NCBI GenBank assembly: GCA_003222895.1
Contig: QHXI01000049.1
Location: forward strand, 62,001-126,000
DNA length: 64,000 nt
Direction of reading: 5' to 3'
Source: Acidobacteriota bacterium
GTDB taxonomy: Bacteria; Acidobacteriota; Blastocatellia; Pyrinomonadales; Pyrinomonadaceae
How positions within the stretch are numbered: the first letter of the stretch is position 1; the number at the start of each line of letters is the position of its first letter. The position numbers and the translations under genes are program-made. Shown piece by piece: positions 2,483 through 48,362 of the stretch. Under the pieces are notes generated by a model, which was not told the origin of the DNA, searched no databases, and saw only the letters and a list, made by a program, of their open reading frames with translations.

Positions 2483-2490
2483 ACTTCAAT

Positions 2491-3264
2491 ATGCCGAGCT
2501 TGAAAGACTTAAAGGTTAAGTTGTTCGCTGATGGCGCGAATCTCGACATGATTTCGCGCATGGCGGCCAACCCGCTCATCAAGGGCTTTACCACCAATCC
2601 CACGCTGATGCGAAAGGCCGGCATCACGGACTACCGGGGATTTGCTCGGGACGTTCTGAACATAGTTAACGATCGTCCCGTCTCTTTCGAAGTGTTCTCG
2701 GATGATTTCGATGGGATGGAATTGCAGGCGCGCGAGATCGCGTCCTGGGGCGAGAATGTGTTTGTGAAAATTCCGATCACCAACACGCGCGGCGAGCCGA
2801 GCAAGCCGTTGATCAAGCGATTGTCCGAAGCCGGGGTTCAGATTAATGTCACGGCTTTGATGACCGCGGAACAAGTTGGCGGCATTCTCGACAGCTTTGT
2901 CGAAGGCACCCGAAATTTTGTTTCTCTTTTCGCGGGACGAATTGCCGACACCGGTCGCGATCCCATGCCCATCGTGAAGCGGGCCGTCGAAATAATGCGC
3001 AGTTCTCCGCAGGCGGAGTTAATCTGGGCCAGCCCGCGCGAATTGTTGAATGTGATTCAAGCTGACGAGGTCGGCTGTCACATCATCACGGCCACCGATG
3101 ACGTGTTAAAAAAACTTGAGGTCATCGGCAAAGATCTTGATGTCTTCTCACTCGAGACGGTGCATATGTTCTGGCAGGACGCGGAGAAGGCAGGCTACAC
3201 GATCGAGATTTCCCAACCAGCAGTGGCGTCCTCAACGACCGCCGTACAACATCGCACCAAATAA
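2491..3264 (+). CDS. Transaldolase-family protein
   Basis: A 257-residue TIM-barrel transaldolase, of the short type close to fructose-6-phosphate aldolase. Landmarks are FADGA (12-16), TTNPTLM (34-40), the Schiff-base Lys93 in VKIPIT and SLFAGRIADTGRDP (145-158). The family moves a dihydroxyacetone unit between sugar phosphates. Beside an SIS isomerase and GmhB it could supply sedoheptulose 7-phosphate, or another C7/C8 skeleton, from central sugar phosphates. Its place inside a polysaccharide operon, not a pentose-phosphate operon, suggests a dedicated biosynthetic role; that is inference. A 45-bp spacer follows before the next GTG start. Confidence 0.85.
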   Translation: MPSLKDLKVKLFADGANLDMISRMAANPLIKGFTTNPTLMRKAGITDYRGFARDVLNIVNDRPVSFEVFSDDFDGMELQAREIASWGENVFVKIPITNTRGEPSKPLIKRLSEAGVQINVTALMTAEQVGGILDSFVEGTRNFVSLFAGRIADTGRDPMPIVKRAVEIMRSSPQAELIWASPRELLNVIQADEVGCHIITATDDVLKKLEVIGKDLDVFSLETVHMFWQDAEKAGYTIEISQPAVASSTTAVQHRTK

Positions 3265-3309
3265 AGTTCTGATACATCTTTTGATTCAGCGAGGGAGATT
3301 CCAAATAAC

Positions 3310-4308
3310 GTGAGTAAAGTCTTGGTCACAGGGGGCGCCGGTTACGTTGGCTGTGTGCTGGTTCCCAAACTGCTTGGCGCCGGTCATGAGGTCATTGTTT
3401 ATGATCTGATGTTCTTTGGCGGAGATGGATTGCCAACGCACGATCGCCTTCAAGTAATCGAGGCGGACATTCGCGACACAGACAGCCTTGCGAAAGCGCT
3501 CGCCGGCGTGGACCAGGTAATACACCTGGCTTGCATCTCAAACGACACTCGTTTTGAGCTCGACCCAGGCTTGGGCAAATCAATTAACTACGATTGCTTT
3601 GAGCCGATGGTCAAGGCGGCGAAGGCGGCGGGCGTCAAGCGATTTATTTATGCGTCCACGAGTTCGGTGTACGGCGTAAGTGATGCGCCGGAAGTTCGCG
3701 AAGATCACCCATTAGTTCCGCTCACCGACTACAACAAGTTCAAAGGCATGTGCGAGCCGCTCTTGTTGCGTCACCAATCGCCCGACTTTACGACCGTCGT
3801 GATTCGACCGGCGACAGTTTGCGGCTACTCTCCGCGCATGCGTTTCGATCTGACAGTCAACATTCTAACGAACCACGCAGTCAACAAAGGTAAGATCACG
3901 GTCTTCGGCGGCAGGCAACAGCGGCCGAATATTCATGTCGATGACATCGCGGACCTTTACGTGAAGCTGCTTGAATATCCGTCGGAATTGATCGCTGGAG
4001 AAATCTTCAACGCCGGTTATCAAAACCACACGGTTTCGGAACTCGCGGACATGGTCAAAAAAGTAGTCGAAGATGAGATGCCGGAAAGAGCGCCGATCAA
4101 TATCGAGACGACGGCATCGGACGACCTGCGCTCATATCACGTTTCATCGACAAAGATCGCCGAGAAACTCGGCTATCAGCCCGAGCGTAGCGTCGAAGAT
4201 GCGGTGCGCGACTTGTGCAAAGCATTGAAGGCGGGAAAGCTGCCAAACAGTCTTGAAGACGATCGTTACATTAACGTCAGATATCTGAAAAAAGGCGGCG
4301 TCGGATGA
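3310..4308 (+). CDS. NAD-dependent sugar-nucleotide epimerase/dehydratase (extended SDR)
   Basis: A 332-residue extended SDR. The nucleotide-binding loop TGGAGYVG is at 7-14, the YASTSSVYG strand at 114-122 and the catalytic YNKFK pair at Tyr141/Lys145. The start codon is GTG. The protein is a paralogue of the SDR at 32421: both carry an R-x-DL-VNIL core segment, the FGG-x-Q-xRP substrate loop, and an RY-x-N motif near the end. The substrate is unknown. Its place between transaldolase and the nucleotidyltransferase-kinase suggests action on a heptose-type or related activated sugar. The stop overlaps the next SDR as ATGA. Confidence 0.8.
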   Translation: MSKVLVTGGAGYVGCVLVPKLLGAGHEVIVYDLMFFGGDGLPTHDRLQVIEADIRDTDSLAKALAGVDQVIHLACISNDTRFELDPGLGKSINYDCFEPMVKAAKAAGVKRFIYASTSSVYGVSDAPEVREDHPLVPLTDYNKFKGMCEPLLLRHQSPDFTTVVIRPATVCGYSPRMRFDLTVNILTNHAVNKGKITVFGGRQQRPNIHVDDIADLYVKLLEYPSELIAGEIFNAGYQNHTVSELADMVKKVVEDEMPERAPINIETTASDDLRSYHVSSTKIAEKLGYQPERSVEDAVRDLCKALKAGKLPNSLEDDRYINVRYLKKGGVG

Positions 4309-5309
4309 GCCTCAGCAAGGTTGCAGTGGTCACCGGAGGGGCTGGCTTTATCGGGAGCCACATGGTTGATCTGCTGCTCGAGCGCGGCTATCAAGTTCGC
4401 GTTATCGACAATCTGGTTGGCGGACGGCTTGAAAATGTTCAGCACCACCTACACGATCCTAACTTCGTTTTTCAACAGCAGGATCTTAGAGTTACCGCGC
4501 CTGACGATCCGATTTTCAAAGGGGCTGAATACGTATTTCATTTTGCCGGCATTGGCGACATCGTGCCCTCGATCGAACGCCCGGCTGAATATCTCTCCGC
4601 GAACGTGATGGGTACGGTTCACGCGCTGGAAGCGGCGCGTTACGCGGGCGTCAAGAAATTCGTCTACGCCGCATCCTCGTCATGTTATGGGATCGCCGAG
4701 GTGCCAACGAACGAAGATGCTCCGATACGACCTGAATATCCTTACGCACTCAGTAAGTACTGCGGCGAAGAAGCCGTGCTTCATTGGGGATTGGTATACA
4801 AGCTGCCGGTTATGTCGATCAGGATTTTTAACGCTTACGGTCCGCGTTCGAAAACCACGGGTGCATACGGAGCCGTCTTCGGAGTGTTTCTCGCGCAAAA
4901 ACTCGCCGGTATGCCATTCACGGTCGTTGGCGACGGGACGCAGACGCGCGACTTTGTGTTCGTGACTGATCTGGCGCGCGCATTTCTTTGCGCGGCCGAA
5001 TCAGATCGTTCAGGCGAGATCTACAACGTCGGCGCCGGCAATCCGCAGTCTGTCAATGCGTTGGTAGGACACCTGGGCGGCGAGGTGGTTCAAGTTCCAA
5101 AACGTCCGGGCGAACCCGACTGCACGTGGGCCGACATTTCGAAGATTCGATCGCAGCTTGGTTGGGAACCGAAAGTATCTTTTGAAGATGGCGTACGAGA
5201 AATGTTGCGCAACATAGATTATTGGCGCGAGGCTCCGGTGTGGAACCCCGCTTCAATTCAGAACGCGACCAAAACCTGGTTTGCAATGCTGTCGGACAAA
5301 AATCAGTAA
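4305..5309 (+). CDS. NAD-dependent epimerase/dehydratase, UDP-glucose 4-epimerase-like
   Basis: A 334-residue extended SDR with TGGAGFIGSH (10-19), the AASSSCYG strand (122-129), the YALSK catalytic pair (Tyr147/Lys151), and a GDGTQTRDFVFVTDLA C-terminal sugar-nucleotide segment typical of GalE and RmlB relatives. It probably epimerises or dehydrates a nucleotide sugar in the cytoplasm. The start is ATGA-coupled to the preceding SDR, and its stop (TAATG) is coupled to the nucleotidyltransferase-kinase gene, so the three are probably translated together. I cannot tell 4-epimerase from 4,6-dehydratase from motifs alone. Confidence 0.82.
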   Translation: MSLSKVAVVTGGAGFIGSHMVDLLLERGYQVRVIDNLVGGRLENVQHHLHDPNFVFQQQDLRVTAPDDPIFKGAEYVFHFAGIGDIVPSIERPAEYLSANVMGTVHALEAARYAGVKKFVYAASSSCYGIAEVPTNEDAPIRPEYPYALSKYCGEEAVLHWGLVYKLPVMSIRIFNAYGPRSKTTGAYGAVFGVFLAQKLAGMPFTVVGDGTQTRDFVFVTDLARAFLCAAESDRSGEIYNVGAGNPQSVNALVGHLGGEVVQVPKRPGEPDCTWADISKIRSQLGWEPKVSFEDGVREMLRNIDYWREAPVWNPASIQNATKTWFAMLSDKNQ

Positions 5310-6847
5310 TGAGCAAAGACGATTACCGCCGAAAACTGAAATCACGCGAAGAGTTGCGAGAACTTATCGGGGCCAGGCCGCGAACGAAATCTGTGATTAT
5401 GTGTCATGGAACTTTCGACCTGGTTCATCCCGGTCACGTCCGTCACTTAATGTATGCGAAAAGCAAAGCCGACACCTTGATCGCTAGTCTTACCTGCGAC
5501 GCCCACATTAAGAAGGCCAATTTTCGGCCGTTCGTTCCGCAACAACTGCGCGCGATGAATTTGGCCGCACTGGAGGTCGTCGATTATGTGATCATCGACG
5601 ACAATCCCACGCCGCTCGAAAACCTGTCGTTTCTGCAGCCGGATTATTTTGCCAAAGGGTATGAGTACCACGACGGCGGCATTCATCCACGCACGCTGGA
5701 AGAAATGGATGTGCTCAAGAGTTATGGCGGCGAAGTAATCTTTACGCCCGGGGACGTCGTCTATTCTTCGTCGAGCATGATCGAGGTCGGTCCTCCGAAT
5801 CTTTCTTCGGAGAAGCTGATGGCGCTGATGGAGTCTGAGAACATTACCTTTGACGATCTTCGGCGGGCGCTCGATTCGTTTCGCGGCATTCGGGTGCACG
5901 TTGTCGGCGACACGATCGTCGATTCCTACGTGTTTTGTTCGCTCACCGGCGGCGTAGCGAAAACCCCGACCTTTAGTTTGAAATACGACCAGCAGACTGA
6001 TTTCTCGGGCGGCGCCGCGGTCGTTGCCAAACATTTGCGCCGAGCTGGCGCCGAAGTGAAGTTTTCTACAGTCCTGGGAAATGATCAACTGAAAGATTTC
6101 GTACTCGACGATCTGCGGGGCGAAGGCATTCAGGTTAATCCGATCATCGACAATACGCGGCCGACGACGCAGAAAACTGTTTATATCGCCGGCGGCTATC
6201 GCATGCTGAAGGTAGACAAGCTGGATAACCGGCCGATCGGAGATCACATTCTCGAGGAACTAAAGCAATCGATCGCCCACGATCATGTCGACGCAGTAGT
6301 TTTCTCAGATTTTCGTCACGGCATTTTCAATCGCGAAACCATTCCTGAATTGTCAGGCAATCTGCGCGATGACGTTCTAAAAGTTGCCGATAGCCAGGTC
6401 GCGAGCCGGTGGGGAAATATTCTGGATTTCAGAGGCTTCGATCTGATAACGCCAAATGAGAAAGAAGCGCGGTTCGCTTTGGGCGATCAGGACTCGACCG
6501 TGCGGCCGATGGCGATGGAGCTTTATAAGCGCGCCGATTGTAAGACTTTGATTTTGAAATTAGGCGACCGCGGCATTCTTACTTATCGTGCACCAACGTC
6601 CGAAGTCCGCGCTTTTTTCACGGTTGATAGTTTCGTTGACAGACTTGTCGACGCCGTCGGGGCCGGGGACGCGCTGCTCTCTTACGCTACGCTTTCGATG
6701 GCCACCACGCAGTCGTCAGTCATTGCTTCGATCCTGGGCTCGGTAGCTGCCGCGTTGGCTTGCGAGCACGAAGGAAACAATCCGGTTGCTCCGGAAGATG
6801 TGCTCAAGAAGCTCAATGCGGTGGAGAGGCAGATACAGTACGCATGA
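5309..6847 (+). CDS. Bifunctional sugar nucleotidyltransferase / PfkB-family kinase, HldE-like with reversed domain order
   Basis: A 512-residue two-domain enzyme. Residues 25-165 are a cytidylyltransferase-like domain with the HxGH motif in HGTFDLVHPGHVRHL (33-47) and an SSSSMI motif near 153-158. Residues 195-512 are a PfkB/ribokinase domain with GDTIVDSYV (200-208), SGGAAVVAKHL (233-243) and the catalytic DAVGAGD (448-454, base Asp454). Classical HldE (heptose-7-phosphate kinase / heptose-1-phosphate adenylyltransferase) has the kinase first, so the order here is swapped. With GmhA- and GmhB-like genes upstream, an ADP-heptose-type activation is the simplest reading. The ATG at 5309 overlaps the upstream stop as TAATG; an earlier in-frame start at 5222 would lie inside the preceding gene. 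Confidence 0.85.
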   Translation: MSKDDYRRKLKSREELRELIGARPRTKSVIMCHGTFDLVHPGHVRHLMYAKSKADTLIASLTCDAHIKKANFRPFVPQQLRAMNLAALEVVDYVIIDDNPTPLENLSFLQPDYFAKGYEYHDGGIHPRTLEEMDVLKSYGGEVIFTPGDVVYSSSSMIEVGPPNLSSEKLMALMESENITFDDLRRALDSFRGIRVHVVGDTIVDSYVFCSLTGGVAKTPTFSLKYDQQTDFSGGAAVVAKHLRRAGAEVKFSTVLGNDQLKDFVLDDLRGEGIQVNPIIDNTRPTTQKTVYIAGGYRMLKVDKLDNRPIGDHILEELKQSIAHDHVDAVVFSDFRHGIFNRETIPELSGNLRDDVLKVADSQVASRWGNILDFRGFDLITPNEKEARFALGDQDSTVRPMAMELYKRADCKTLILKLGDRGILTYRAPTSEVRAFFTVDSFVDRLVDAVGAGDALLSYATLSMATTQSSVIASILGSVAAALACEHEGNNPVAPEDVLKKLNAVERQIQYA

Positions 6848-7773
6848 GGATCGTCGTAATCGGTCTGGGAGTTCAGGGAAAGAAAAGGAAGGCGGTTGCT
6901 GCAGACGATTTGGTTGCCTGCGTCGATCTGGCGCTTTCCGGCGCAGACTATCGATCGATCGAAGATGTTCCGCTGGCGTCGTTCGACGCGGCCCTCGTTT
7001 GTACGCCCGATCAGGCAAAGTTCGAGATCCTTCGCTACCTACTCGCTAACCGCAAGCACGTATTGGTGGAAAAACCTCTTCTGGCTGAGAGCGAGAAAGA
7101 TCTGCTCGATTTGGATGAACTCGCGCGCGCCAATCACGTGACGTGCTACACCGCCTACAATCATCGCTTCGAGCCTCACTTCGTGCGCCTCAAAGAAACG
7201 CTCAGCTCGGGCGTGCTTGGCAAGATTTATTTGATCCGAGTCTTTTATGGTAACGGGACCGCGCTTGATGTGAAACGATCGGTTTGGCGCGATCAAGGGT
7301 TAGGCGTGCTCTCAGATATCGGTTCGCACCTGATCGATACTATGCTCTTTTGGTTTGGCGAGATCGGTTCAGAGTTTCAGGTGTGGAGCTACGACAATTT
7401 CGAGAACGCAGCCTGCGATCACGTGCTGTTCGGATCGCGAGGAAATCCGACTATCGAATTGGAAGCGACGCTGTTGGCGTGGCGAAACACTTTTACGCTC
7501 GATGTTTTTGGCGATGCGGGGAGCGCCCACATTAACTGTCTTTGCAAGTGGGGACCAAGCACTTTCACACTTCGCAAGCGAGTTCTTCCCAGCGGCAGGC
7601 CGACCGAAGAAACAGAGACGCGGGAATGCGCGGACCCGACGTGGGCGCTGGAGTACGAACACTTCAAAGATCTGTGCAGCGCCGGGACAACGAATATCCA
7701 GAACGACATCATTATTAACCGCGTTATGCATCAACTCGCGCGCGAGGTCGACAGGAAGTTCATTTTGAAATGA
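6844..7773 (+). CDS. Gfo/Idh/MocA-family NAD(P)-dependent oxidoreductase
   Basis: A 309-residue oxidoreductase with the dinucleotide loop GLGVQG (7-12) and the family-defining EKP at 76-78 (HVLVEKPLL). A substrate-binding alpha/beta domain follows. Members oxidise or reduce a sugar or sugar-nucleotide hydroxyl, often at C3. It is ATGA-coupled to the nucleotidyltransferase-kinase upstream and overlaps the defective-looking dehydrogenase downstream by 4 bp, so the two may act on the same intermediate. I took the ATG at 6844 as the start, since the extra 28 residues offered by an upstream start would lie inside the kinase gene. Confidence 0.83.
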   Translation: MRIVVIGLGVQGKKRKAVAADDLVACVDLALSGADYRSIEDVPLASFDAALVCTPDQAKFEILRYLLANRKHVLVEKPLLAESEKDLLDLDELARANHVTCYTAYNHRFEPHFVRLKETLSSGVLGKIYLIRVFYGNGTALDVKRSVWRDQGLGVLSDIGSHLIDTMLFWFGEIGSEFQVWSYDNFENAACDHVLFGSRGNPTIELEATLLAWRNTFTLDVFGDAGSAHINCLCKWGPSTFTLRKRVLPSGRPTEETETRECADPTWALEYEHFKDLCSAGTTNIQNDIIINRVMHQLAREVDRKFILK

Positions 7774-11454: not shown

Positions 11455-12294
11455 ATGATCAAAACGGAAATACTAACCGAGTCTTTTGACGCCGCGGCTT
11501 CACGGCGAAGGTGTCTGAAGTTTCGTCGACGCATGCTCGACATCTCCCAGACCGTAACCGCGCTGCATCTTGCCGGGGCTTTTTCGTGTCTCGAGATTGT
11601 CGACTGCATCTACTACGGATTGATGCGGCGCGATCAGTCCGGCGATTCCAGGGATACGTTTCTCCTCTCGAAAGGCCATGGTTCTTTGGCGCAGTACGTA
11701 GTGCTCGAGGATCTTGGTATCCTGCCGCGCGAGCAACTAGACAACTTCTGCCGGCCCGGTTACCTACTCGGCACGCATCCCGATTTCGGCATACCGGGAA
11801 TCGAAGCTGCTACGGGCTCGCTTGGCCATGGACTTCCCATCGCGGTCGGGATGGCATTGGCTGACAAAGTGCAATCAGCGGATCGGACCGTGTATGTAGT
11901 GTTAAGCGACGGCGAATTGCAGGAAGGCTCGACTTGGGAGGCCATGATGCTTGCGCCCTCTCTCGGCCTGCGGAACCTCGTTGCGGTAGTTGATCTGAAT
12001 GACTTCCAATCGCTGGGCCGCACCAGTGAAATTTTTCCTAATTTTTATCCGGTGGTAGACAAAGTGCAAGCCTTTGGCTGGGAAGCAGTCGAAGTGGACG
12101 GCCACGATCAGCAAACAATTTTCAATGCGGTGTCATCGCGCAGCGGCAACGCGCCCATGATGATCATCGCGCGAACTATCAAGGGCAAGGGCGTGAGTTA
12201 CATGGAGAACGTGCCCATCTGGCATTACCGTTCACCCTCGCCGGAAGAATATCAGCAAGCTTTGGCAGAGTTGTCAGGAGAAGAAGAAGCTTGA
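11455..12294 (+). CDS. Transketolase, N-terminal (ThDP pyrophosphate-binding) subunit
   Basis: A 279-residue subunit corresponding to the first third of transketolase. It has SKGHGSLAQY (72-81), GSLGHGLP (121-128) and the ThDP/Mg motif SDGELQEGSTWEA from 151 with the closing Asn172. The Pyr domain is supplied by the next gene, whose TTG start overlaps this stop. Split transketolases of this type are common in secondary-metabolite and polysaccharide loci. The likely role is transfer of a C2 ketol unit onto or from a sugar. Together with the transaldolase at 2491 it could build a heptulose or octulose skeleton. Confidence 0.88.
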   Translation: MIKTEILTESFDAAASRRRCLKFRRRMLDISQTVTALHLAGAFSCLEIVDCIYYGLMRRDQSGDSRDTFLLSKGHGSLAQYVVLEDLGILPREQLDNFCRPGYLLGTHPDFGIPGIEAATGSLGHGLPIAVGMALADKVQSADRTVYVVLSDGELQEGSTWEAMMLAPSLGLRNLVAVVDLNDFQSLGRTSEIFPNFYPVVDKVQAFGWEAVEVDGHDQQTIFNAVSSRSGNAPMMIIARTIKGKGVSYMENVPIWHYRSPSPEEYQQALAELSGEEEA

Positions 12295-13211
12295 GAGATA
12301 CGTTTGCGCGAACCCTTTATCAGGTCGCGAAGAAACAGCCTAACGTCTTTATCGTGGTCGCGGATATTTCGCCGGCCGGCAGCATGGCTCCGTTTCGCGA
12401 CGAGTTCCCGAATCAGTTCATCAATGTCGGTGTAGCAGAGCAGACCATGATAAGCCTTTGCGCCGGCCTTGCGTTGCGCGGTTGCCGTGCTTTTGCATAC
12501 ACGATCGCGACCTTCTCGATTTATCGTCCGTTTGAGCAAGTAAGGGTCGATCTTTGCTATCAAAATCTGCCCGTGACTGTGGTGGGAATTGGCGGCGGCG
12601 TTTCGTACTCGACGCTGGGCGGAACTCATCATGCGCAGGAGGACATCGCAGTCGTAGGCGCGATCCCGAACATGGCGGTTCTCGCGCCGTGTGATCCGTT
12701 GGAGACTGAAGCCGCGACGTGGGTATGCGCCGAACGAAATGGGCCAACGTATTTGCGATTGGGAAAAGCGGGCGAACCCAACCTGACGACTGACGCGCCT
12801 GAGCCTTTTGAATTTGGCAAAGTGCGCTTGATCCGAGAAGGCAAGGACGTTTGCATCATCTCGTATGGCCCGATTATGAAGATGGCCTGGGAAATTGCCG
12901 AACGAATTGAGCGCGAGCAAGGTCGAACTGTCGCGCTCGTTTCGGCGCACACAGTCAAGCCACTGGATCGAGTCGGCGTCAAACGCATTCTCGATCGGTT
13001 CGAAACTGTCGCCGTAATCGAAGAGCATTCACCGCGCGGAAGCTTAGGTGGTGAGGTGAAACAATTGGCCTGGGACGCAAGCGCAAAATGCCGCCTCGTG
13101 ACTTTCAGTTTGCGGGACGCATTTATTCATCAGTTTGGCTCACAGCGCGACATGTGGACGGCTCACGGTCTCGATCCAGAGATCATTTATCAAAGCATCG
13201 TCGCAGGTTGA
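12291..13211 (+). CDS. Transketolase, C-terminal (Pyr and C-domain) subunit
   Basis: A 306-residue subunit. VGVAEQ contains the ThDP-activating Glu50, TFSIYRPFEQVR is at 74-85 and THHAQEDIA at 112-120, followed by the transketolase C-terminal domain. It starts with TTG overlapping the stop of the N-terminal subunit, which couples their translation and fits an obligate heterodimer/heterotetramer. Without the preceding subunit it would have no pyrophosphate-binding half. The downstream methyltransferase begins about 20 bp later. Confidence 0.88.
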   Translation: MRDTFARTLYQVAKKQPNVFIVVADISPAGSMAPFRDEFPNQFINVGVAEQTMISLCAGLALRGCRAFAYTIATFSIYRPFEQVRVDLCYQNLPVTVVGIGGGVSYSTLGGTHHAQEDIAVVGAIPNMAVLAPCDPLETEAATWVCAERNGPTYLRLGKAGEPNLTTDAPEPFEFGKVRLIREGKDVCIISYGPIMKMAWEIAERIEREQGRTVALVSAHTVKPLDRVGVKRILDRFETVAVIEEHSPRGSLGGEVKQLAWDASAKCRLVTFSLRDAFIHQFGSQRDMWTAHGLDPEIIYQSIVAG

Positions 13212-13935: not shown

Positions 13936-14679
13936 ATGAGCAGTAAGCGCTTTGAGGGCCAGAGGATTTTGGTGTGTGGTGGAGCGACCGGAATCGGCGC
14001 AGCCACCGCCCGCCTGCTGGGATCAGAGGGCGCGACGGTTTGTATACAATATCGCCAACGTGAGACGGAGGCGAAAGAGATGTGCCGCCAGCTTCGCTCG
14101 GACGGCGCTTCGGTTGAAATATTCCCCGCCGACCTGACGGATTCGGATCAAGTGAAGAGTTTAATAAAGGACGTAGGCGTAATGCACGGGCTGGTACATT
14201 CGGTCTCACCCGCGCTCCCGAACGCGCTCTTTTATCAAATCAACTGGTCGGAGTACGAGCAACACTGGTCGACTGCTGTGGAAAGCGCCTACTGGCTGCT
14301 TAAACATAGTCTTGAATCCGAGTCTTGCGCTCTGCAAGCGGTCGTCTTTGTTCTCTCTAGCTATACGATTGGAGTCCCGCCAAAGAATTTGGCTCCTTAC
14401 ATCAGCGCCAAATATGCGTTGCTCGGTTTATGTAAGGTGATGGCCCTGGAGTTGGCTGAACGCGGCATCAGAATAAACTCGATTTCTCCGGGGTTTACCC
14501 CTACTCCCTTGACAGCTCATATTGAGCCTCGCTTACAGGACTTCGTGGCGCGCGGTATACCCATGCATCGTCTAGGCTCTTCGGAAGACGCCGCGATGGC
14601 TGCGGCTTTCTTATTAAGCAGTGAAAGTAGTTTCATCACAGGTGTAAATCTGCCAGTTAGTGGCGGGGCGGCGATGTGA
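13936..14679 (+). CDS. Short-chain dehydrogenase/reductase, FabG-like
   Basis: A 247-residue classical SDR. TGxxxGIG appears as GGATGIGAA (15-23), the catalytic Ser is in LSSY near 141-142, the YISAK pair is Tyr155/Lys159, and the NSISPGFTPTPLT substrate loop follows. FabG relatives reduce 3-ketoacyl thioesters; other classical SDRs oxidise sugar or steroid alcohols. Directly upstream of a MaoC-type hydratase, an FkbH-like protein and an acyl carrier protein, a 3-ketoacyl-ACP reductase role is the most economical reading, but this is contextual inference. Confidence 0.85.
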   Translation: MSSKRFEGQRILVCGGATGIGAATARLLGSEGATVCIQYRQRETEAKEMCRQLRSDGASVEIFPADLTDSDQVKSLIKDVGVMHGLVHSVSPALPNALFYQINWSEYEQHWSTAVESAYWLLKHSLESESCALQAVVFVLSSYTIGVPPKNLAPYISAKYALLGLCKVMALELAERGIRINSISPGFTPTPLTAHIEPRLQDFVARGIPMHRLGSSEDAAMAAAFLLSSESSFITGVNLPVSGGAAM

Positions 14680-14699
14680 CTAGCGAAGGTGTGAAATAG

Positions 14700-15152
14700 A
14701 TGTGCGCCGCTCACATAACGGTAGATCCGCTGACACAATCCGTAGCGCGCAATTTTTCTGAGCTTGCGGTCGGCGACAGGTGTACTGAGACGATTCGGAT
14801 TACGAATGATTTGGTGGAAGCTTTTATAAAGATGTCCGGTGATTCGGCGCCGGTTCATTCCGATGCTTCGTTAGCTCGACAGATGAATTATTCCGGCCGC
14901 GTCGTTCACGGATTACTAGTGACGCTTCGCTTTTCCCGGTTGCTCGGGATGTTCGTGCCTGGAACAATGTCGGTGATTCATTCCATCAGGTTCGATTACG
15001 TTCGACCAGTCATGATCGGCGATGAACTAACTTATTCAGTCACCATCGCGCGTTTGAGTGCCGCAGCTAAATTAGCGGTGTTAGATCTAGCGGCATCACG
15101 CGACGGAAAAATCTGCGCGAAAGGGGTGGCCCAATGCGTGCTGATCCAATGA
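14700..15152 (+). CDS. MaoC-like hot-dog dehydratase
   Basis: A 150-residue single hot-dog protein with the R-specific hydratase motif MSGDSAPVHSDASLA: Asp48 and His53 are the expected catalytic pair, with Ala where most members have Asn. GRVVHGLLV follows. Such enzymes add water to or remove it from trans-2-enoyl thioesters. Beside a FabG-like SDR and an ACP it could interconvert 3-hydroxyacyl- and enoyl-ACP for a short acyl decoration. Its end overlaps the FkbH-like gene by up to 19 bp, so the two are probably translationally coupled. Confidence 0.83.
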   Translation: MCAAHITVDPLTQSVARNFSELAVGDRCTETIRITNDLVEAFIKMSGDSAPVHSDASLARQMNYSGRVVHGLLVTLRFSRLLGMFVPGTMSVIHSIRFDYVRPVMIGDELTYSVTIARLSAAAKLAVLDLAASRDGKICAKGVAQCVLIQ

Positions 15153-16990
15153 GTTCCTCGGTCGCCGCAAACCCTTTGGCGCAAGCCAGGAAAACGGTGG
15201 CAGAAGATCCCGGCGCGGCTTACGAACTGATTCTTCAAAACAGCGATGCGTGGCTGAGCGTCTCGAGCTTTTTGTCTGCCGTGCAACTGCTGCAAAGAAT
15301 ACCTAGTGAGACACGCGAGCAGCGCGCGAAAATTGAGGTAAAGGTGGCACTGCTCGGCAATTGCACGCTTTCATACACGGCTGACGCGTTATCTTTGGCA
15401 CTGGGGCCAACGATTTTTCCCAAGATTTACACAGGAGATTTTGATCAATGGGCCATGGACTTGATCGACACCGCATCTGGTCTGGCAAACTTCGCGCCTG
15501 ACGTAGTTGTTGTTCATCTGTCTTCGTTAGGCTTTACCAAAGGCGGGACGGATCTGGCTGCCGTTCCAATCAAGCAAATAGAAGATGCTTTCCGATCGTT
15601 CGCAGATCGCTCGAATGCTCCGGTGATCACGATTTTGCCTGAGCCTCTGCGGGAGTGCACCGGCGGCAGTTCGCAAACCGATTGCTGGTACAACGAAACC
15701 AGGGAAGCGATCAGGCGCGCATCCAAGCACGCCCTCGGCAATCGCGCGATCACTCTGGATGCGGTTCCTACTCTGCTGGCGATGAACAGCGATTGGGCTG
15801 CCGCGCGTTATTGGAACAGCGCCAAAATTCCTTTGCATCCCAAGGCCTGTATCGCGCTCGGTCGTCGTCTTGCGCGGGTGATTGAAAACGTCACGTATCC
15901 GCGAATAAAAGTTATTGCCGTCGATTGCGACAATACTTTGTGGGGTGGAATAGTCGGAGAAGATGGATCGAAAGGGCTGCGCCTATCGCCATTTGACGAA
16001 AGCGCCGGCTATCTTAACTTGCAGCGATTACTGAAAGAGGCAGCCGCGAACGGTTTCCTGCTAGTAGCGCTATCAAAGAACGACGAAGAGAATGTGCGAG
16101 AGGTTTTTGACCAACGTCCGGAGATGATATTGAAACTCGAGGACTTCAGTCTTCTCAAGATCAATTGGGGGCCAAAGTCGCAAAACCTGCTCGCGGCTGC
16201 AAACGAACTAAATCTCGCCTTGGATAGTTTTCTGCTGATCGACGATTCACCTTTCGAACGCGGCGAAGTAGCTGCAGCCTTACCGGACGTGGTGATCGCA
16301 GAACTGCCGCCGGATCCCGACGAGTATGCTACGGCGATTACGCGCCTCGGCCTTTTGGAGCGACCGCTGTTGAGCGACGAGGACACGCGAAGGACGGAAC
16401 TCTATCGACAGGAGCAGGCCCGGCAAACCGCGCGCGAGGCTGTGATTTCGCCCGAAGAATTTCTCCGCGATCTGCAGTTGGAGGTTTTAGCAACGCCGGT
16501 GGGCGCAGAAAATCTCGACCGAGTTGCGCAGCTGGTTGCAAAGACGAACCAATTTAATTTGACTACGCGCCGGCACAGTCGAGACAAACTTGGCGCCTGG
16601 GCTTCAGATCCAAACGTTTACGCATATTGTTATCGAGTGTCCGATAGGTTTGGCGATGCGGGAATCACAGGTGTTTGTGTCGCCTTGCCGAAATCGGATC
16701 GAGTCTTCGAGCTCGATACCTTATTACTCAGTTGCCGGGTCATTGGGCGAACGGTTGAGCACGCTATCATGGAACATCTGCGCCAATGGCTTGCGGACCG
16801 GAAACCGGAGGAACTGCGGGGCGAATATCTTCCGACGCCAAAGAATGGTTTGGTCGCTGATCTTCTGCCGCGCTTTGGCTTTACACTCATCTCGAACGTG
16901 GGTGATCGCAAGCAGTACAGCTTAGACGATTTCCAGCGGCCGATCGCTAACGCTTTTGCAAAGATTGTAGAAGACCCCTTGACCGACTGA
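15134..16990 (+). CDS. FkbH-like HAD-superfamily IIIC protein
   Basis: A 618-residue FkbH homologue. An N-terminal SGNH-like region (about 70-240) precedes the HAD domain with IAVDCDNTLWGG (nucleophile Asp264, Asp266), SKNDEENV and FLLIDDSPFER; a C-terminal acyltransferase-like region carries AKTNQFNLTTRRH. Characterised FkbH-type proteins dephosphorylate 1,3-bisphosphoglycerate and load the glyceryl group onto an ACP. The adjacent ACP gene (14-bp gap) makes acyl-ACP loading very likely here. Two starts are possible: 15134, with AAGGGG 9-14 bp upstream, used here; or 15149, which forms an ATGA overlap with the MaoC stop and gives 613 residues. Confidence 0.87.
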   Translation: MRADPMSSSVAANPLAQARKTVAEDPGAAYELILQNSDAWLSVSSFLSAVQLLQRIPSETREQRAKIEVKVALLGNCTLSYTADALSLALGPTIFPKIYTGDFDQWAMDLIDTASGLANFAPDVVVVHLSSLGFTKGGTDLAAVPIKQIEDAFRSFADRSNAPVITILPEPLRECTGGSSQTDCWYNETREAIRRASKHALGNRAITLDAVPTLLAMNSDWAAARYWNSAKIPLHPKACIALGRRLARVIENVTYPRIKVIAVDCDNTLWGGIVGEDGSKGLRLSPFDESAGYLNLQRLLKEAAANGFLLVALSKNDEENVREVFDQRPEMILKLEDFSLLKINWGPKSQNLLAAANELNLALDSFLLIDDSPFERGEVAAALPDVVIAELPPDPDEYATAITRLGLLERPLLSDEDTRRTELYRQEQARQTAREAVISPEEFLRDLQLEVLATPVGAENLDRVAQLVAKTNQFNLTTRRHSRDKLGAWASDPNVYAYCYRVSDRFGDAGITGVCVALPKSDRVFELDTLLLSCRVIGRTVEHAIMEHLRQWLADRKPEELRGEYLPTPKNGLVADLLPRFGFTLISNVGDRKQYSLDDFQRPIANAFAKIVEDPLTD

Positions 16991-17003
16991 GGGCACGGAC
17001 TTT

Positions 17004-17252
17004 ATGCAGGCGACAAAGCAGGACGTTGAGCAAGTGTTTCGAATGGTATTCGAGCACGAAGATCTCGAAATCTTTCCGCAGATGACCGCGAATGACGTTG
17101 AGAACTGGGACAGCTTTCACCACTTGAACTTGATCCTGGCGCTTGAGGAACGCTTTGACGTGCGATTTTCATCGGAAGAGATCGCTGGAATGGAAAAGGT
17201 CGACGATCTATTTTGGATCCTTGGGCGGCATGGCGTAGAGGTTTCATGGTGA
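17004..17252 (+). CDS. Acyl carrier protein
   Basis: An 82-residue acidic four-helix carrier protein. The 4'-phosphopantetheine site is Ser37 in NWDSFHHLNLI, a DSF variant of the usual DSL. ACPs paired with FkbH-like proteins carry a glyceryl or related C3/C4 unit. It sits between the FkbH-like gene and a GNAT protein, which would be a natural acyltransferase to pass the bound acyl group to an amino sugar. A separate phosphopantetheinyl transferase would be needed and is not in this window. Confidence 0.88.
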   Translation: MQATKQDVEQVFRMVFEHEDLEIFPQMTANDVENWDSFHHLNLILALEERFDVRFSSEEIAGMEKVDDLFWILGRHGVEVSW

Positions 17253-17274
17253 TGCGCAACGTCAACATACCAAT

Positions 17275-18381
17275 GTGGCGATAGAAATCAGAGACCACTT
17301 CGCGATGCGGGATTGGGAAGTGATGCGCGACTTTCTCTCGCGGAATTATCGTCCCGACGTGGCCCTCTGTTGCCGATCGGTCTTTGAATGGCAATTCATG
17401 GTCCAACCGGATACTGGCGCCGCCAACATGTATTGTGCGTGGGATGGGGATCGTTTGATAGGTATCCAGGGCTATATTCCGGTGCAAATTTTTTGGGGTG
17501 CGACTGACAAACCGGTAAGTGGTGCGTGGACGATCAACTGGTACGTAGAAAAAGACTACAGGCGCGGCGTGGGTTGGTTACTAATGCGAAAGCTTCAGGA
17601 CGCTTTCCCGGTAGTAATGGGAATCGAAGCCAGCCCGGACAATCAGGTAATCGTTAACCGTTTAGGATGGACTTTCTATCCGAGCTTGCCCCGCTACTTG
17701 TCTGTGCTGGATCTGGAACAAGCCTCACAAATGCTTTGTCCGGAGGTTTCTGTCCAAGCGGACTTGCGCCCCCTTCTTTACGCCGGAGAAACTTTGGCCC
17801 GACCGCATTATCTCAATGAAGCTTCCGGCGACTACAATCCTGATTGGCGGCTGTATCCGCCGATGAGTTATGGAGTAATTCGCTCTCAATCGTATTTCGG
17901 ATGGCGCTATTTTGCTCATCCAGTGTTTAAGTATTTTATCGCAACGACCGGCTCGCTTGACCGGCCCGCTGTATGCGTTTACAGGATCGAACAATCTTCC
18001 GGTGATTTTAGAGCAAAGGTGGGGCGCATCGTCGATTTCTTCCATCCCATTGATTCTGAGGGATCGGAAAATGGAAAGGGGTTGATTCATGCTGTCCTTA
18101 ATAATCTGCGAGAGAAAGGTTGCGCATACGCGGACTGTTTCTGTTCAAGTCACACCTATGCGCAGACCTTGCTTGAGGCCGGATGGAGAATGCAGCCCGC
18201 AAGTCGCCAGTTATTACCAGTAAGATTATCTCCAATAGAGCGCAAAATGTTTACTTATAACATCGAGTGGGGAGTGGCAAAGCAATTACCAGTTCCGATC
18301 TTAGAAGACACTTATTTCACTAAGTCGGACGGCGATGCAGATCGGGCCGCCATGCTGCCCGAACTCCTTGAGAAGAGCTAA
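17275..18381 (+). CDS. GNAT-family N-acyltransferase-like protein
   Basis: A 368-residue protein. Its N-terminal half has the GNAT acyl-CoA/pantetheine loop as DYRRGVGWLLMRKL (RRGVG at 96-100), preceded by the SGAWTINWYVE strand. The C-terminal half (about 150-368) may be a second, degenerate GNAT repeat; it is otherwise unrecognised. The start is GTG at 17275, 22 bp after the ACP. The likely role is transfer of an acyl group (possibly from the adjacent ACP) to an amino or hydroxyl group of a nucleotide sugar. The overlap of family membership and position is good evidence; the substrate is a guess. Confidence 0.7.
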   Translation: MAIEIRDHFAMRDWEVMRDFLSRNYRPDVALCCRSVFEWQFMVQPDTGAANMYCAWDGDRLIGIQGYIPVQIFWGATDKPVSGAWTINWYVEKDYRRGVGWLLMRKLQDAFPVVMGIEASPDNQVIVNRLGWTFYPSLPRYLSVLDLEQASQMLCPEVSVQADLRPLLYAGETLARPHYLNEASGDYNPDWRLYPPMSYGVIRSQSYFGWRYFAHPVFKYFIATTGSLDRPAVCVYRIEQSSGDFRAKVGRIVDFFHPIDSEGSENGKGLIHAVLNNLREKGCAYADCFCSSHTYAQTLLEAGWRMQPASRQLLPVRLSPIERKMFTYNIEWGVAKQLPVPILEDTYFTKSDGDADRAAMLPELLEKS

Positions 18382-18404: not shown

Positions 18405-19169
18405 ATGGAGACGTCCGAGATCAATGAATTCAACAGTTACTCCCAGGACCTGGATATAGAAAGCCAATTGGAAGCTTTCTTTAAGAAACATGAGATTAGT
18501 CCCCTCGATGCTGTCAGGCGCTTTCCGATTTACTCGCGCCGGATCCATCTGAGGCGTTTCCTCGCACACTATGAACTATTTCGTCAGACAATTGACTTGC
18601 CGGGAGACATTGTCGAGTTGGGCTTCTTTAGGGGATTGTCGTTGATGAGTTGGGCAAACTTTCTGGAAGTTCACCAGGTTAGCGACCGGCGCAAAAGAGT
18701 ATTGGGATTTGACACGGGCGAAGGATTGACCGGCGTTGGTTCAGAGGATGAAAGCGAGAGCGGTAAGGATGTTGCGGTTCCGGGAACATTCGCCGTGGCT
18801 GGAGGCGGCTGCGAATTAAAAGAGGCTATAGAAATTTTTGACCACGACCGGTTCGTGCCGTGGAAGCCCAGAGTGGAATTAACTTACGGGGACGTGCGCC
18901 AGACAGTTCCTGCCTACGTGGAGCAGAATCCCGGCCTGAGAATCTCTCTGCTTCATTTTGACATGGATATTTATGAGCCTACCAAAGTCGGTCTTGAACA
19001 CTTGTTCCCGAAGGTTGTGAAGAACGGTATTGTCGTCTTTGACGAATATGGCGTTCTCGAATGGCCGGGTGAAACAAAGGCCGTTGACGAATTCTTCGCG
19101 GGGACAGATTACGTCGTTAAGAAGTTTCCCTGGGCACCGTCGCCGGGTGGTTACGTAATCAAGCTATGA
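18405..19169 (+). CDS. TylF/MycF-type O-methyltransferase
   Basis: A 254-residue methyltransferase. GDIVELGFFRGLSL (67-80) is motif I, LGFDTGEGLTG follows strand 2, and the metal/catalytic signature LLHFDMDIYEPT plus VFDEYGVLEWPGE matches the TylF/MycF family, Mg-dependent enzymes that methylate hydroxyls of 6-deoxy sugars. That supports O-methylated deoxy sugars in the product. It is preceded by 23 bp and followed by 36 bp, all on the same strand. The ATG at 18405 has AAAGGAACGAAACC upstream as a reasonable ribosome site. Confidence 0.82.
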   Translation: METSEINEFNSYSQDLDIESQLEAFFKKHEISPLDAVRRFPIYSRRIHLRRFLAHYELFRQTIDLPGDIVELGFFRGLSLMSWANFLEVHQVSDRRKRVLGFDTGEGLTGVGSEDESESGKDVAVPGTFAVAGGGCELKEAIEIFDHDRFVPWKPRVELTYGDVRQTVPAYVEQNPGLRISLLHFDMDIYEPTKVGLEHLFPKVVKNGIVVFDEYGVLEWPGETKAVDEFFAGTDYVVKKFPWAPSPGGYVIKL

Positions 19170-19205: not shown

Positions 19206-19904
19206 ATGGTTGATATTGGTCGCTACAATGCGGATCCCGAAAGCTACCAGCGATTGGTAGATGAACTCTATGCAAACAATCCAAGCATTACTCTGCCGCC
19301 CGAATATGCTTCATTCATAAAAGACAATCTGTTGAGGTTTCTGATTCGCCTCGCGCGCTACAAGTTCGTGGCACGACTTGTCAAGAAATCCGATCGGGTT
19401 TTGGAAGTAGGTTGCGGCTCAGGTCTCGGAAGCATCTTTTTGAGTCAGCATTGCGCGCACGTGACTGGGCTTGAAGTGCGCACGACTGAAATCGAAGAGG
19501 CGAAGTTGATCAATCGCCGCCCAAACGTTGATTTCGTGGTCGGCGATCTGTTTGAGTTGGAAACCTCTGAAAAATTCGATGTGGTCGTCAACCTCGACGT
19601 AATAGAACATATGCCGCTTGAACAGGGGCGAGAATTCGTCGCGGTAATGAGTCGGCACATGAAGGCCGCTGGAATGTTAGTCATCGGCACGCCCAGCATT
19701 TACTCATACGAATACCAAAGCCCATTGAGCAAGGCTTCGCATATCAAGTGTTACGACCAGGACGAATTGGTGTCGCTGGTGGATGAACACTTCGGGCGTA
19801 CGCTGGCCTTTTCAATGAACGACGAAGTGGTTCACACTGGTTTTTCGAAGATGGCATGGTACTATTTCGTACTCGCATTTTTGCCGCGAAAGAGCGCCCA
19901 TTAG
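19206..19904 (+). CDS. Class I SAM-dependent methyltransferase
   Basis: A 232-residue methyltransferase with motif I RVLEVGCGSGLGSIFLS (64-80), a second-strand acidic residue in VTGLEVRTTEIE, and KFDVVVNLDVIEHMPLEQGR as motif IV/V. It resembles UbiG/Methyltransf_23 proteins common in glycan clusters. The acceptor is unknown. It ends 17 bp before the chosen aminotransferase start; a longer aminotransferase reading frame would overlap it by 49 bp. Confidence 0.82.
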   Translation: MVDIGRYNADPESYQRLVDELYANNPSITLPPEYASFIKDNLLRFLIRLARYKFVARLVKKSDRVLEVGCGSGLGSIFLSQHCAHVTGLEVRTTEIEEAKLINRRPNVDFVVGDLFELETSEKFDVVVNLDVIEHMPLEQGREFVAVMSRHMKAAGMLVIGTPSIYSYEYQSPLSKASHIKCYDQDELVSLVDEHFGRTLAFSMNDEVVHTGFSKMAWYYFVLAFLPRKSAH

Positions 19905-19921
19905 TCAGGAACATCCACGAC

Positions 19922-21037
19922 ATGTCAATGGTGGCAAGTAATATCAAGACTAAGGTTCCGTTTCTCGATCTGCGCGTCACTGACGACAATGAACGTCAGA
20001 ATCTGTTAGCCGCGGTTGACGCAATGCTTCGCCATGGGCGAATCGTGCTCGGACCGGAGGTTCAGGAATTAGAACGCGAAATCGCACTCAGGTGCGGAAG
20101 AAAATATGGCGTCGGCGTCAACTCCGGCACCGATGCCTTGTATTTGGGTTTGAAGAGCCTCGGCATCGGAAAGGGCGATGAGGTAATTACGACCGTGCTG
20201 TCCTGGATCGCGACAGCAAATGCAATAGCGCTCACCGGAGCAACTCCGATATTTGCGGACATTGATGACGATCTTAACGTTGATCCTGCGAGGGTCGAAC
20301 GGTTGATCACACCCCGCACGAAGGCTCTAATGTCGGTGCACTACACGGGTAAAATGTGCCGCATGACTCAGCTGATGCAGATTGCGAACGAGCATAACTT
20401 GCTCGTAGTTGAAGACGCCTCGCAAGCATTTGACGCGCGCTACCAGGGCCGCATCGCCGGTTCGTTCGGCGATATCGCCTGTTTCAGCATGAATCCGATG
20501 AAGGTTTTTGCGGCCTGCGGTGAAGCAGGAATGGTTGTCACCGATCGCGAAGATATTTATGAAAAATTGATCTCTCTGCGTTACAACGGCACCATTAACC
20601 GCGAAGAATGCGTCGAGACTAGTCTTAACGGTCGGCTGGATACTCTACAAGCAGCTATCCTGCTGCGTCGGCTGGACGGCGTCAAAGATATCATTCAGAA
20701 GCGACGGGAGATCGCGAGCTGGTACGATCCGCAACTGAAAGATGTCGTTGGCATTCCGAAAGAAGCCGGCGGAGAAGAGGACGTTTACTACACTTATCAG
20801 ATACGCGCTGATCGGCGGAATGAATTGAAGACTTTTCTAGAAACCAGGGGAATCGAAACGAAGATTCAACACCCGTACCTGATGGCCGATCAACCTGCCT
20901 ATCAGCATTTGCAGCAGAAGATATTCCCAAATGCCCGCCGATTGGTCGAACGAATTCTTTGTATTCCCGCTCATGAAAAGTTGACGCGCGCCGACATTGA
21001 CTATGTAGCCAGCAACATTCGAGAGTTTTACGGGTGA
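19922..21037 (+). CDS. DegT/DnrJ/EryC1/StrS-family sugar aminotransferase
   Basis: A 371-residue PLP aminotransferase. It has VPFLDL near the N-terminus, NSGTDAL (67-73) for the phosphate cup, VVEDASQAF with Asp165 facing the pyridine nitrogen, and the Schiff-base Lys194 in FSMNPMKVFAACGEAG. It converts a keto sugar nucleotide to an amino sugar in the cytoplasm. A free amine would be the acceptor for the GNAT/ACP module just upstream. The ATG at 19922 avoids the overlap with the methyltransferase gene. Its stop overlaps the GTG start of the WbuC gene. A second member lies at 45696. Confidence 0.88.
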   Translation: MSMVASNIKTKVPFLDLRVTDDNERQNLLAAVDAMLRHGRIVLGPEVQELEREIALRCGRKYGVGVNSGTDALYLGLKSLGIGKGDEVITTVLSWIATANAIALTGATPIFADIDDDLNVDPARVERLITPRTKALMSVHYTGKMCRMTQLMQIANEHNLLVVEDASQAFDARYQGRIAGSFGDIACFSMNPMKVFAACGEAGMVVTDREDIYEKLISLRYNGTINREECVETSLNGRLDTLQAAILLRRLDGVKDIIQKRREIASWYDPQLKDVVGIPKEAGGEEDVYYTYQIRADRRNELKTFLETRGIETKIQHPYLMADQPAYQHLQQKIFPNARRLVERILCIPAHEKLTRADIDYVASNIREFYG

Positions 21038-23529: not shown

Positions 23530-25428
23530 ATGTGTGGAATTGCAGGAATAATTCGTTGGCGGGGCGCTTTGCAGCGCCACGGCGAGCTCGAGCGCATGAC
23601 TGCGGCAGTTGCGCACCGCGGCCCGGATGGTGTCGGCTTCCTGCGTCGTGAGGGCGTCGGGTTGGGCCATCGTCGATTGGCCATTATTGATCCTGAACTC
23701 GGCATCCAGCCGATGTCCGACGAAGACGAGTCTGTTTGGATCACTTACAACGGCGAACTCTACAACTATCGCGAACTGAAAGATCAGCTTTCAAAACGTG
23801 GCCACCGTTTTGTCACTAACTCAGATACCGAAGTCGTCATCCACGCCTATGCCGAATGGGGCGCAGATTGCGTTAAGAAGTTTCGTGGAATGTTTGCGTT
23901 TGGGTTGGCCGACTTCCGTTCGCGAAAGCTGATGCTCGCGCGCGATCACTTCGGTATCAAACCTATGTACTACCGAGTGGGTGATGGCTATGTAGGCTTT
24001 GCTTCGGAGCTTTCGGCGTTGCGTGAAGTCGACGATGTGGTTCCTAAAGGAAATCTGAAGGCTATCGATTTATACCTGCGCTTTAATTATGTACCAACGC
24101 CTCATACGATTTACCAGGAAGTTTACAAGCTGCCGCCGGCCAGTTACATGACGATCGATTTCGATGGTAGTCGATCGGATCCGGTGACCTATTGGGATTT
24201 ACGATTCGCGCAGCGAAACGGCGGGTCTGAGGACGCATGGCTGGAGCGCGCCGAAGACACGATTCGCAATTCAGTCAAAGCTCACCTGGTTGCCGATGTG
24301 CCATTTGGAGTTTTTCTTTCCGGAGGTGTCGATTCAACGCTTATTGCATGGGAGATGAGCCAATTGCTTGATACCCCGGTTCAGGCTTTTGCGATCGGCT
24401 TCAATGAGGAGGAGTATTCAGAGCTCAAGTACGCCGAACAGGCAGCGGCCGGTTGCGGCATCGAGTTGCACACTGAGATCGTTCGCGATGATGCGCTGGA
24501 AATTCTTCCGGATCTCGTCTCGCATTACGGTGAACCGTTCGGCGACAGTTCGTGCATTCCGACTTGGTACGTCTCACGTTTAGCGCGCGAGCACGTGCCG
24601 ATGGTTCTGTCCGGCGATGGTGGCGATGAAGCTTTTGGCGGATATTGGCGTTATGAACATTGGATGCAAACCGGTCCGACGATCGAGGGCAAACGGTTAC
24701 TTAAATCGGCAGCGGAAGCGACGCGCCAACTTGCGCCCCGCGCGGGTTTCTATTGGCTACGGCAAGCGATGAGGCAGTTCAGGTTGCCCGTCAATACACT
24801 TGCCGACTGGCAACAATTGATGCTGTTTGTCGGTGAACAAGCTCGACGCGAGTTGTGGCGTCCCGAGTACCACGACGTATTCAATCATAGTTCTGAACTG
24901 TTTGCTGACGCGGATGAAAAGGCACACAGTTGGCATCGCCTCGCTTACGCGCAGTATGTCGATTATCGAACTTACCTTCCTTGTGACATCCTGACGAAGG
25001 TCGACGTCGCCAGCATGTATCACGGATTGGAAGTGCGCACACCTTTAGTGGATCATTGTGTAATGGAATTTGCCGCTGGTTTGCCGGTCCCACAACGATA
25101 TCGCGAGGGGGGGCCCGGGAAAGCTGTTGGTAAATATGTGACGAAGAAAATCCTGGAGAAAGTCTTTCCGCGCGAATTTGTGCATCGCCGCAAGATGGGT
25201 TTCGGCATTCCCCAACCAGAATGGTTTTCCGAAGGACGCGCGGGACGAAGTTTATGGCAACGGGTAACGGCCGACGATAACGCTCCCCTCTTTGAGTGTT
25301 TCGATCGCGAGAAGATTCGCGGCCTGCTCGATCGTCACACGCCGGCGTCTGACAATTCACTCCCTTTGTGGTTGTTCCTCGTGCTCGGACTCTGGCTGGA
25401 GCAAAACCCCACGGTTTCATTTGTTTGA
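23530..25428 (+). CDS. asnB: Glutamine-hydrolysing asparagine synthase-like amidotransferase
   Basis: A 632-residue AsnB-family protein. Cys2 is the N-terminal nucleophile (MCGIAGI), RGPDG and the glutamine-binding YNGELYNY segment follow, and the synthetase PP-loop SGGVDS lies at 264-269. It is full length with both active sites intact. In polysaccharide loci such proteins amidate carboxyl groups of uronic acids or sugar-linked acids; a true asparagine synthetase is the alternative. A second copy lies 5.5 kb downstream at 28976. The stop is 3 bp before the next glycosyltransferase. Confidence 0.87.
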   Translation: MCGIAGIIRWRGALQRHGELERMTAAVAHRGPDGVGFLRREGVGLGHRRLAIIDPELGIQPMSDEDESVWITYNGELYNYRELKDQLSKRGHRFVTNSDTEVVIHAYAEWGADCVKKFRGMFAFGLADFRSRKLMLARDHFGIKPMYYRVGDGYVGFASELSALREVDDVVPKGNLKAIDLYLRFNYVPTPHTIYQEVYKLPPASYMTIDFDGSRSDPVTYWDLRFAQRNGGSEDAWLERAEDTIRNSVKAHLVADVPFGVFLSGGVDSTLIAWEMSQLLDTPVQAFAIGFNEEEYSELKYAEQAAAGCGIELHTEIVRDDALEILPDLVSHYGEPFGDSSCIPTWYVSRLAREHVPMVLSGDGGDEAFGGYWRYEHWMQTGPTIEGKRLLKSAAEATRQLAPRAGFYWLRQAMRQFRLPVNTLADWQQLMLFVGEQARRELWRPEYHDVFNHSSELFADADEKAHSWHRLAYAQYVDYRTYLPCDILTKVDVASMYHGLEVRTPLVDHCVMEFAAGLPVPQRYREGGPGKAVGKYVTKKILEKVFPREFVHRRKMGFGIPQPEWFSEGRAGRSLWQRVTADDNAPLFECFDREKIRGLLDRHTPASDNSLPLWLFLVLGLWLEQNPTVSFV

Positions 25429-48345: not shown

Positions 48346-48362
48346 TTGCTGATAGGTCTCAG

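Follow-up and report, generated by a model that had tools for sequence, protein, structure and literature searches.

An FkbH-ACP module with a MaoC-SDR pair and a tandem GNAT in an Acidobacteriota glycan locus: a possible route to lactyl decoration

Introduction

FkbH proteins and stand-alone ACPs supply glyceryl-ACP in polyketide loci (FkbH/FkbJ; Mad7/Mad8 and Mad14/Mad12), and that FkbH makes glyceryl-ACP is established (PMC7489565). From there the unit passes either to methoxymalonyl, by way of two further dehydrogenases and an O-methyltransferase, or to a tetronate by way of FabH-like and Agg4/5 enzymes. The acylation of sugars by carrier-bound groups is known from the viosamine island of Pseudomonas syringae flagellin glycosylation, with its acp, vioS, vioR and vioB genes (PMC3927599). 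In Dlt D-alanylation (DltA-D) a carrier-bound small acyl group reaches a surface polymer, and MBOAT/SGNH pathways other than Dlt are stated to lack a carrier protein (PMC12148441).

The window analysed here, a stretch of 64,000 nucleotides from an Acidobacteriota bacterium, has five consecutive genes in a glycan locus that bring together an SDR, a MaoC-type protein, an FkbH-family protein, an ACP and a GNAT. For the starter unit of bryostatin, FkbH, ACP, KR and DH activities have reportedly been proposed to make lactyl. Our reading of the window module, to which we give a probability of about 0.45, is that it makes lactyl-ACP from a glycolysis intermediate and that the GNAT N-acylates an amino sugar of a surface glycan. 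A search of a paper library with few subscription journals turned up no account of glycan acylation that involves FkbH.

The module and its proteins

The five open reading frames of the original prediction are present where it had placed them, all on the plus strand and tightly packed, and two further genes that matter to the argument lie downstream:

13936-14679, plus strand: SDR, FabG-like reductase, 247 aa (PF13561, 1.6e-43)
14700-15152, plus strand: MaoC-type hydratase/dehydratase, 150 aa (PF01575, 4.9e-11)
15134-16990, start probably 15149, plus strand: FkbH-family protein with SGNH-like, HAD-IIIC and GNAT-like domains (TIGR01686)
17004-17252, plus strand: stand-alone ACP, Ser37 in NWDSF (NCBIfam ACP models, ~1e-5)
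17275-18381, plus strand: tandem-GNAT acyltransferase, 368 aa (AlphaFold model, pTM 0.81)
18405-19169, plus strand: TylF-type O-methyltransferase (PF05711, 3.4e-14)
19856-21037, plus strand: DegT sugar aminotransferase (PF01041, 1.8e-100)

From the SDR onward the spacings are 20, −19 (−4 if FkbH begins at its second ATG), 13, 22 and 23 bp. The MaoC and FkbH genes thus overlap by 4 to 19 bp depending on the FkbH start. Translation of FkbH probably begins at the second ATG (15149), which shares an ATGA with the stop codon of MaoC. The gap between FkbH and ACP, put at 14 bp in the original prediction, measures 13 bp (16991-17003). Composition gives no sign of a recent gain of the module, the GC content of module (52.7%) and window (53.0%) being without contrast. 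A promoter and terminator scan gave sites no commoner than in shuffled sequence, and Rfam and tRNA scans gave no matches.

The SDR has its active site intact, with GGATGIG (GxxxGxG) at residue 15 and Tyr155-x3-Lys159, and its closest solved structures are 3-oxoacyl-ACP reductases. The usual substrates of such FabG-like SDRs are beta-keto and not alpha-keto thioesters, a point against the reduction of pyruvyl-ACP proposed below. The MaoC protein scores 42.7 bits against PF01575 (cut-off 27) and matches the (R)-specific enoyl-CoA hydratase 1iq6 (1.3e-11); its Asp48 and His53 correspond to the dyad of (R)-hydratases and are invariant in an alignment of 13 FkbH-linked MaoCs.

The FkbH protein scores 297.1 bits against TIGR01686, for which the curated cut-off is 146.65, and keeps the HAD motifs (DxDxT, Ser, Lys, Asp) as D264/D266/T268, S314, K348 and D370/D371. 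Asp264 and Asp266 are intact as predicted, their numbers becoming 259 and 261 if translation starts at 15149. In its AF2 model (pLDDT 89) the SGNH and HAD portion resembles BF1531 (3slr, Z 34.5, 361 residues), and the C-terminal domain, residues 449-601, is of GNAT-like fold and carries Cys534. This cysteine is identical in 124 of 124 aligned FkbHs, and we infer that it is the acyl acceptor. The ACP gives weak matches to ACP models and has its serine, Ser37, intact; the WDS motif is found in most FkbH-adjacent ACPs. With catalytic residues and Ser37 kept, and with the pair recurring elsewhere, the expectation of an intact FkbH-ACP pair is borne out. That FkbH charges this ACP with glyceryl taken from 1,3-bisphosphoglycerate is well supported by its family membership and very probable.

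For the fifth protein there is no Pfam or NCBIfam match. An AlphaFold model made with 24 homologues (pLDDT 78, pTM 0.81) has two GNAT domains in one chain, and so the earlier GNAT call was right, the protein being a tandem GNAT. The model aligns with Eis2 (Z 20.4, 310 aligned, 3.9 Å) and with N-myristoyltransferase (NMT; Z 20.9, 317 aligned, 5.1 Å).

FkbH neighbourhoods and their recurring parts

The neighbourhoods of 131 FkbH genes from several phyla were compared (loci numbered with L). The sources were the family and phylum of the window, ten named loci and samples of two other phyla built around G496, a Proteobacteria genome, and G498, a Verrucomicrobia genome. Genes were called crudely as six-frame ORFs and sorted into groups with iterated profiles that started from the window, L112 and L125. 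Within 5 kb and on the same strand as FkbH an ACP is found in 102 of the 131 loci, an MBOAT in 42, an SDR in 28 and a MaoC in 16, window included. The chance expectation for MaoC near FkbH is estimated at about 0.5 loci, from roughly 4 profile matches per genome of about 5 Mb. Within 3 kb of FkbH, 23 loci have a VOC protein on the same strand and 11, the window among them, a member of the GNAT family.

FkbH is present once in the window genome and absent from six genomes of the same genus (0/6), as is expected of a variable surface-glycan locus. The window FkbH shares some 30-41% identity with its relatives and forms its own long isolated branch in the FkbH tree. A scan of named genomes with it found 10 distant relatives (33-40% identity), none of which has a MaoC. 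Among named replicons, FkbH-ACP is paralleled in a polysaccharide context by plasmid unnamed3 of Niveispirillum cyanobacteriorum, which has a HAD-IIIC phosphatase, an ACP, a WcbI-family acetyltransferase and an SDR; a plasmid search with the window SDR as query returned generic SDRs only.

Outside the window, an SDR is present in 10 of the 15 MaoC-bearing FkbH loci, against 17 of the 115 without MaoC (Fisher p 4.7e-5). In L208 a MaoC-SDR fusion stands as one ORF beside FkbH. L190 has a long ORF at the position of the MBOAT gene, and the MaoC domain forms the C-terminus of this ORF. MaoC is beside FkbH in L181, L187, L188 and L209 with no SDR detected, L209 having an aldo/keto reductase. In the SDR tree the MaoC-adjacent SDRs, that of the window included, group together with support 95/98, and the second SDRs of L191 and L206 fall outside this group. 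In the MaoC tree the FkbH-linked MaoCs lie on one side and 34 unlinked ones on the other, at 85/79, below the support level starred in the trees. The window MaoC, like the window FkbH, is on a long isolated branch, so how the two group with other linked genes is not firm. The FkbH tree scatters the MaoC-bearing loci, with 11 label changes of which at least 9 are forced by well-supported branches. When 209 Pseudomonadota genomes were scanned with a profile of the linked MaoCs, five matches exceeded 150 bits, all beside FkbH (four of them were in the profile and the fifth, L190, was not), and none fell between 117 and 158 bits. Because MaoCs and SDRs group while their FkbH partners scatter, the pair looks like a dedicated cassette that has joined or left different FkbH lineages. 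As a cassette recurrent across FkbH loci, it bears out the suggestion that SDR and MaoC belong functionally with FkbH-ACP, and it is likely that they act on the ACP-bound unit.

What the pair can be exchanged for is seen in L096, which reads MBOAT-FkbH-ACP-MaoC-SDR, and its relatives L097 and L099, which read MBOAT-FkbH-ACP-VOC. If MaoC-SDR and VOC modify one and the same ACP-bound unit, as the gene orders make it look, such a swap is to be expected. The VOC proteins of L097 and L099 match PF13669, the family of methylmalonyl-CoA epimerase, and a VOC beside FkbH could invert C2 of the glyceryl group. Examples near FkbH are L097:10683-11159, L082:8601-9029, L211:6649-7065 and L125:8481-8981.

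GNAT homologues adjoin FkbH in 10 other loci, mostly 3' of FkbH(-ACP). MBOAT is found in none of the 11 GNAT loci and in 42 of the 120 others (p 0.012); such exclusion would be expected of alternative final transferases, and the distribution of the two genes fits their being so. FkbH-ACP-SGNH-MBOAT sets occur in L112, L113, L115, L116, L118, L075, L128, L130 and L131, and look like Dlt-type systems of polymer acylation in which FkbH replaces the adenylation enzyme.

MaoC, SDR, ACP, FkbH and GNAT occur together only in the window among the 131 loci. The search for the same gene order that had been proposed thus returned the exact five-gene order once, and returned its parts repeatedly, as FkbH-ACP, as MaoC-SDR and as FkbH-ACP-GNAT(-TylF). 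The five-gene set is a new combination of recurring parts and not an isolated oddity.

The surrounding glycan locus

Around the module lie epimerases, dehydratases, glycosyltransferases, methyltransferases and a WbuC cupin; the glycosyltransferase and DegT neighbours agree with the glycan setting given to it originally. Nor do homologous loci keep these genes apart from glycan genes: in 55 of the 131 loci, glycosyltransferase, DegT, epimerase, deacetylase or asparagine-synthetase-type genes stand no more than 5 kb from FkbH. The DegT protein at 19856-21037 is near the WbpE, QdtB and perosamine synthase structures and is a possible source of the amino acceptor. A second DegT aminotransferase gene is at 45696-46823, and after it comes a 339-aa protein without a Pfam match (46781-47800).

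Genes for SIS, HAD, transaldolase, HldE-like and GMD-like proteins at 1320-7773 and 47836-49388 suggest a supply of heptose or 6-deoxyheptose. A split transketolase pair (11455-13211), which also looks like part of the heptose supply, precedes the module, and such a pair stands directly beside FkbH in L209 (6758-8498). It was rejected as a part of the module, being beside FkbH in just this one of the 130 other loci, and a role in sugar supply is more likely. The glycan locus has two asparagine-synthetase-like genes (23530-25428 and 28976-30991), and such genes are near FkbH also in L122, L123 and L124.

Proposed pathway and its alternatives

The original prediction of a reduced or dehydrated short acyl chain can, by inference from the analysis, be sharpened to a predicted lactyl-ACP. 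By analogy with characterised FkbH proteins, FkbH would move glyceryl from 1,3-bisphosphoglycerate, probably via Cys534, to the phosphopantetheine of the ACP. MaoC-type enzymes remove a beta-hydroxyl together with the alpha-proton, and the MaoC protein would on chemical grounds take water from across C2-C3 of glyceryl-ACP, which has a 3-hydroxyl, to give enol-pyruvyl and so pyruvyl-ACP. The SDR with NAD(P)H would then reduce pyruvyl-ACP to lactyl-ACP, and the tandem GNAT would transfer the ACP-bound lactyl to the amine of a DegT-made sugar, with TylF perhaps methylating the lactyl hydroxyl or the sugar. The lactyl logic comes from what has reportedly been proposed for bryostatin. Lactyl as the product has about an even chance, and N-acylation of the DegT sugar is slightly favoured; the two methyltransferase genes between GNAT and DegT are a point against the DegT product as acceptor. 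No ketosynthase or acyl-AMP ligase is found among the window proteins scanned, and so chain extension is not required; viosamine-type extension was rejected for want of a ketosynthase among them.

A rival outcome, unlikely in our estimate, is that glyceryl itself is transferred, possibly after O-methylation by TylF, and that the SDR and MaoC proteins have some other place in the glycan pathway or work on a different ACP-bound acid. In its favour, glyceryl-ACP is what FkbH is established to make, MaoC is in none of the 10 other FkbH-GNAT loci (0/10), and TylF is found 3' of FkbH-ACP-GNAT in the window, L125 and L080. It sits poorly with the position of SDR and MaoC directly upstream of FkbH, the MaoC gene even overlapping it, and with the recurrence of the MaoC-SDR pair with FkbH in many loci, the L208 fusion among them. 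A distinctly unlikely case is the loading by FkbH of some other phosphorylated C2-C4 acid, from which MaoC and SDR would build, for example, a 3-hydroxyacyl or unsaturated group. The divergence of the window FkbH from its relatives, on its own branch, and the likeness of SDR and MaoC to fatty-acid reductase and hydratase would suit it, whereas the retention of motifs conserved across the FkbH family and the lack of ketosynthase and acyl-AMP ligase among the scanned window proteins speak against it.

That the genes are fortuitous neighbours, a variable glycan locus having gathered unrelated sugar-modifying genes of which only FkbH, ACP and GNAT cooperate, would accord with the absence of FkbH from the same-genus genomes and with the full set being seen once in 131 loci. 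Against it stand the 15 other loci with MaoC close to FkbH and the way MaoCs and SDRs fall into clades, and it is improbable.

Returning to lactyl-ACP and its transfer by the GNAT, we would tentatively place them, at somewhat under even odds for the whole, within a widespread, as yet undescribed carrier-protein decoration of glycans. In this, FkbH-ACP would draw a three-carbon unit from glycolysis, swappable tailoring (MaoC-SDR to lactyl, or a VOC epimerase) would modify it, and swappable transferases (a cytosolic GNAT, or Dlt-like MBOAT/SGNH) would deliver it, the window being the lactyl-plus-GNAT version. If true, there would be a direct link between glycolysis and the acylation of surface sugars, a gene signature for predicting lactyl or glyceryl substituents would be at hand, and carrier-protein-dependent MBOAT/SGNH acylation would extend beyond Dlt.

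Relation to known systems

The viosamine island, like the window, has a stand-alone ACP, a ketoreductase, an acyltransferase and a methyltransferase in a glycan locus, and it acylates a dideoxy sugar at its 4-amino group, a role similar to that proposed here. Its carbon comes from a ketosynthase III as 3-hydroxybutyryl, however, and it is without FkbH and without MaoC. The polyketide glyceryl-ACP loci share FkbH and the stand-alone ACP, and differ in that the window has MaoC, SDR and GNAT in a glycan locus. The methoxymalonyl-ACP route (FkbG-K) was rejected for the window, no acyl-CoA dehydrogenase (FkbI) or 3-hydroxyacyl-CoA dehydrogenase (FkbK) domain being found in the scanned neighbours, as was the tetronate glycerate-utilisation operon, with no FabH-like or ketosynthase domain there. 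The activities reportedly proposed for bryostatin's starter are the same four as those of FkbH, ACP, SDR and MaoC of the window, but in polyketide synthase domains, and with the product extended by a ketosynthase.

FdhC-type GNATs of O-antigen sugars (5ktc) put a hydroxyacyl group onto an amino sugar, as is proposed for the window GNAT, and are single GNATs using acyl-CoA whereas that of the window is a tandem; the 5ktc match is to the C-terminal domain of FkbH and not to the window GNAT. Dlt resembles the proposal in delivering a carrier-bound small acyl to a surface polymer, and uses the adenylation enzyme DltA and D-Ala where FkbH stands here. Near the window module, with its GNAT, neither an MBOAT nor an SGNH transferase gene was found. 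The FkbH-ACP-SGNH-MBOAT relatives L112, L115, L116 and L118 look Dlt-like. ACP-dependent acylation of amino sugars (PMC3927599) and glyceryl-ACP are thus already known. Against the papers searched, the five-gene combination and the FkbH-tied MaoC-SDR cassette are new, as are the Dlt-like FkbH-ACP-SGNH-MBOAT loci, since the other MBOAT/SGNH pathways are described as carrier-free (PMC12148441).
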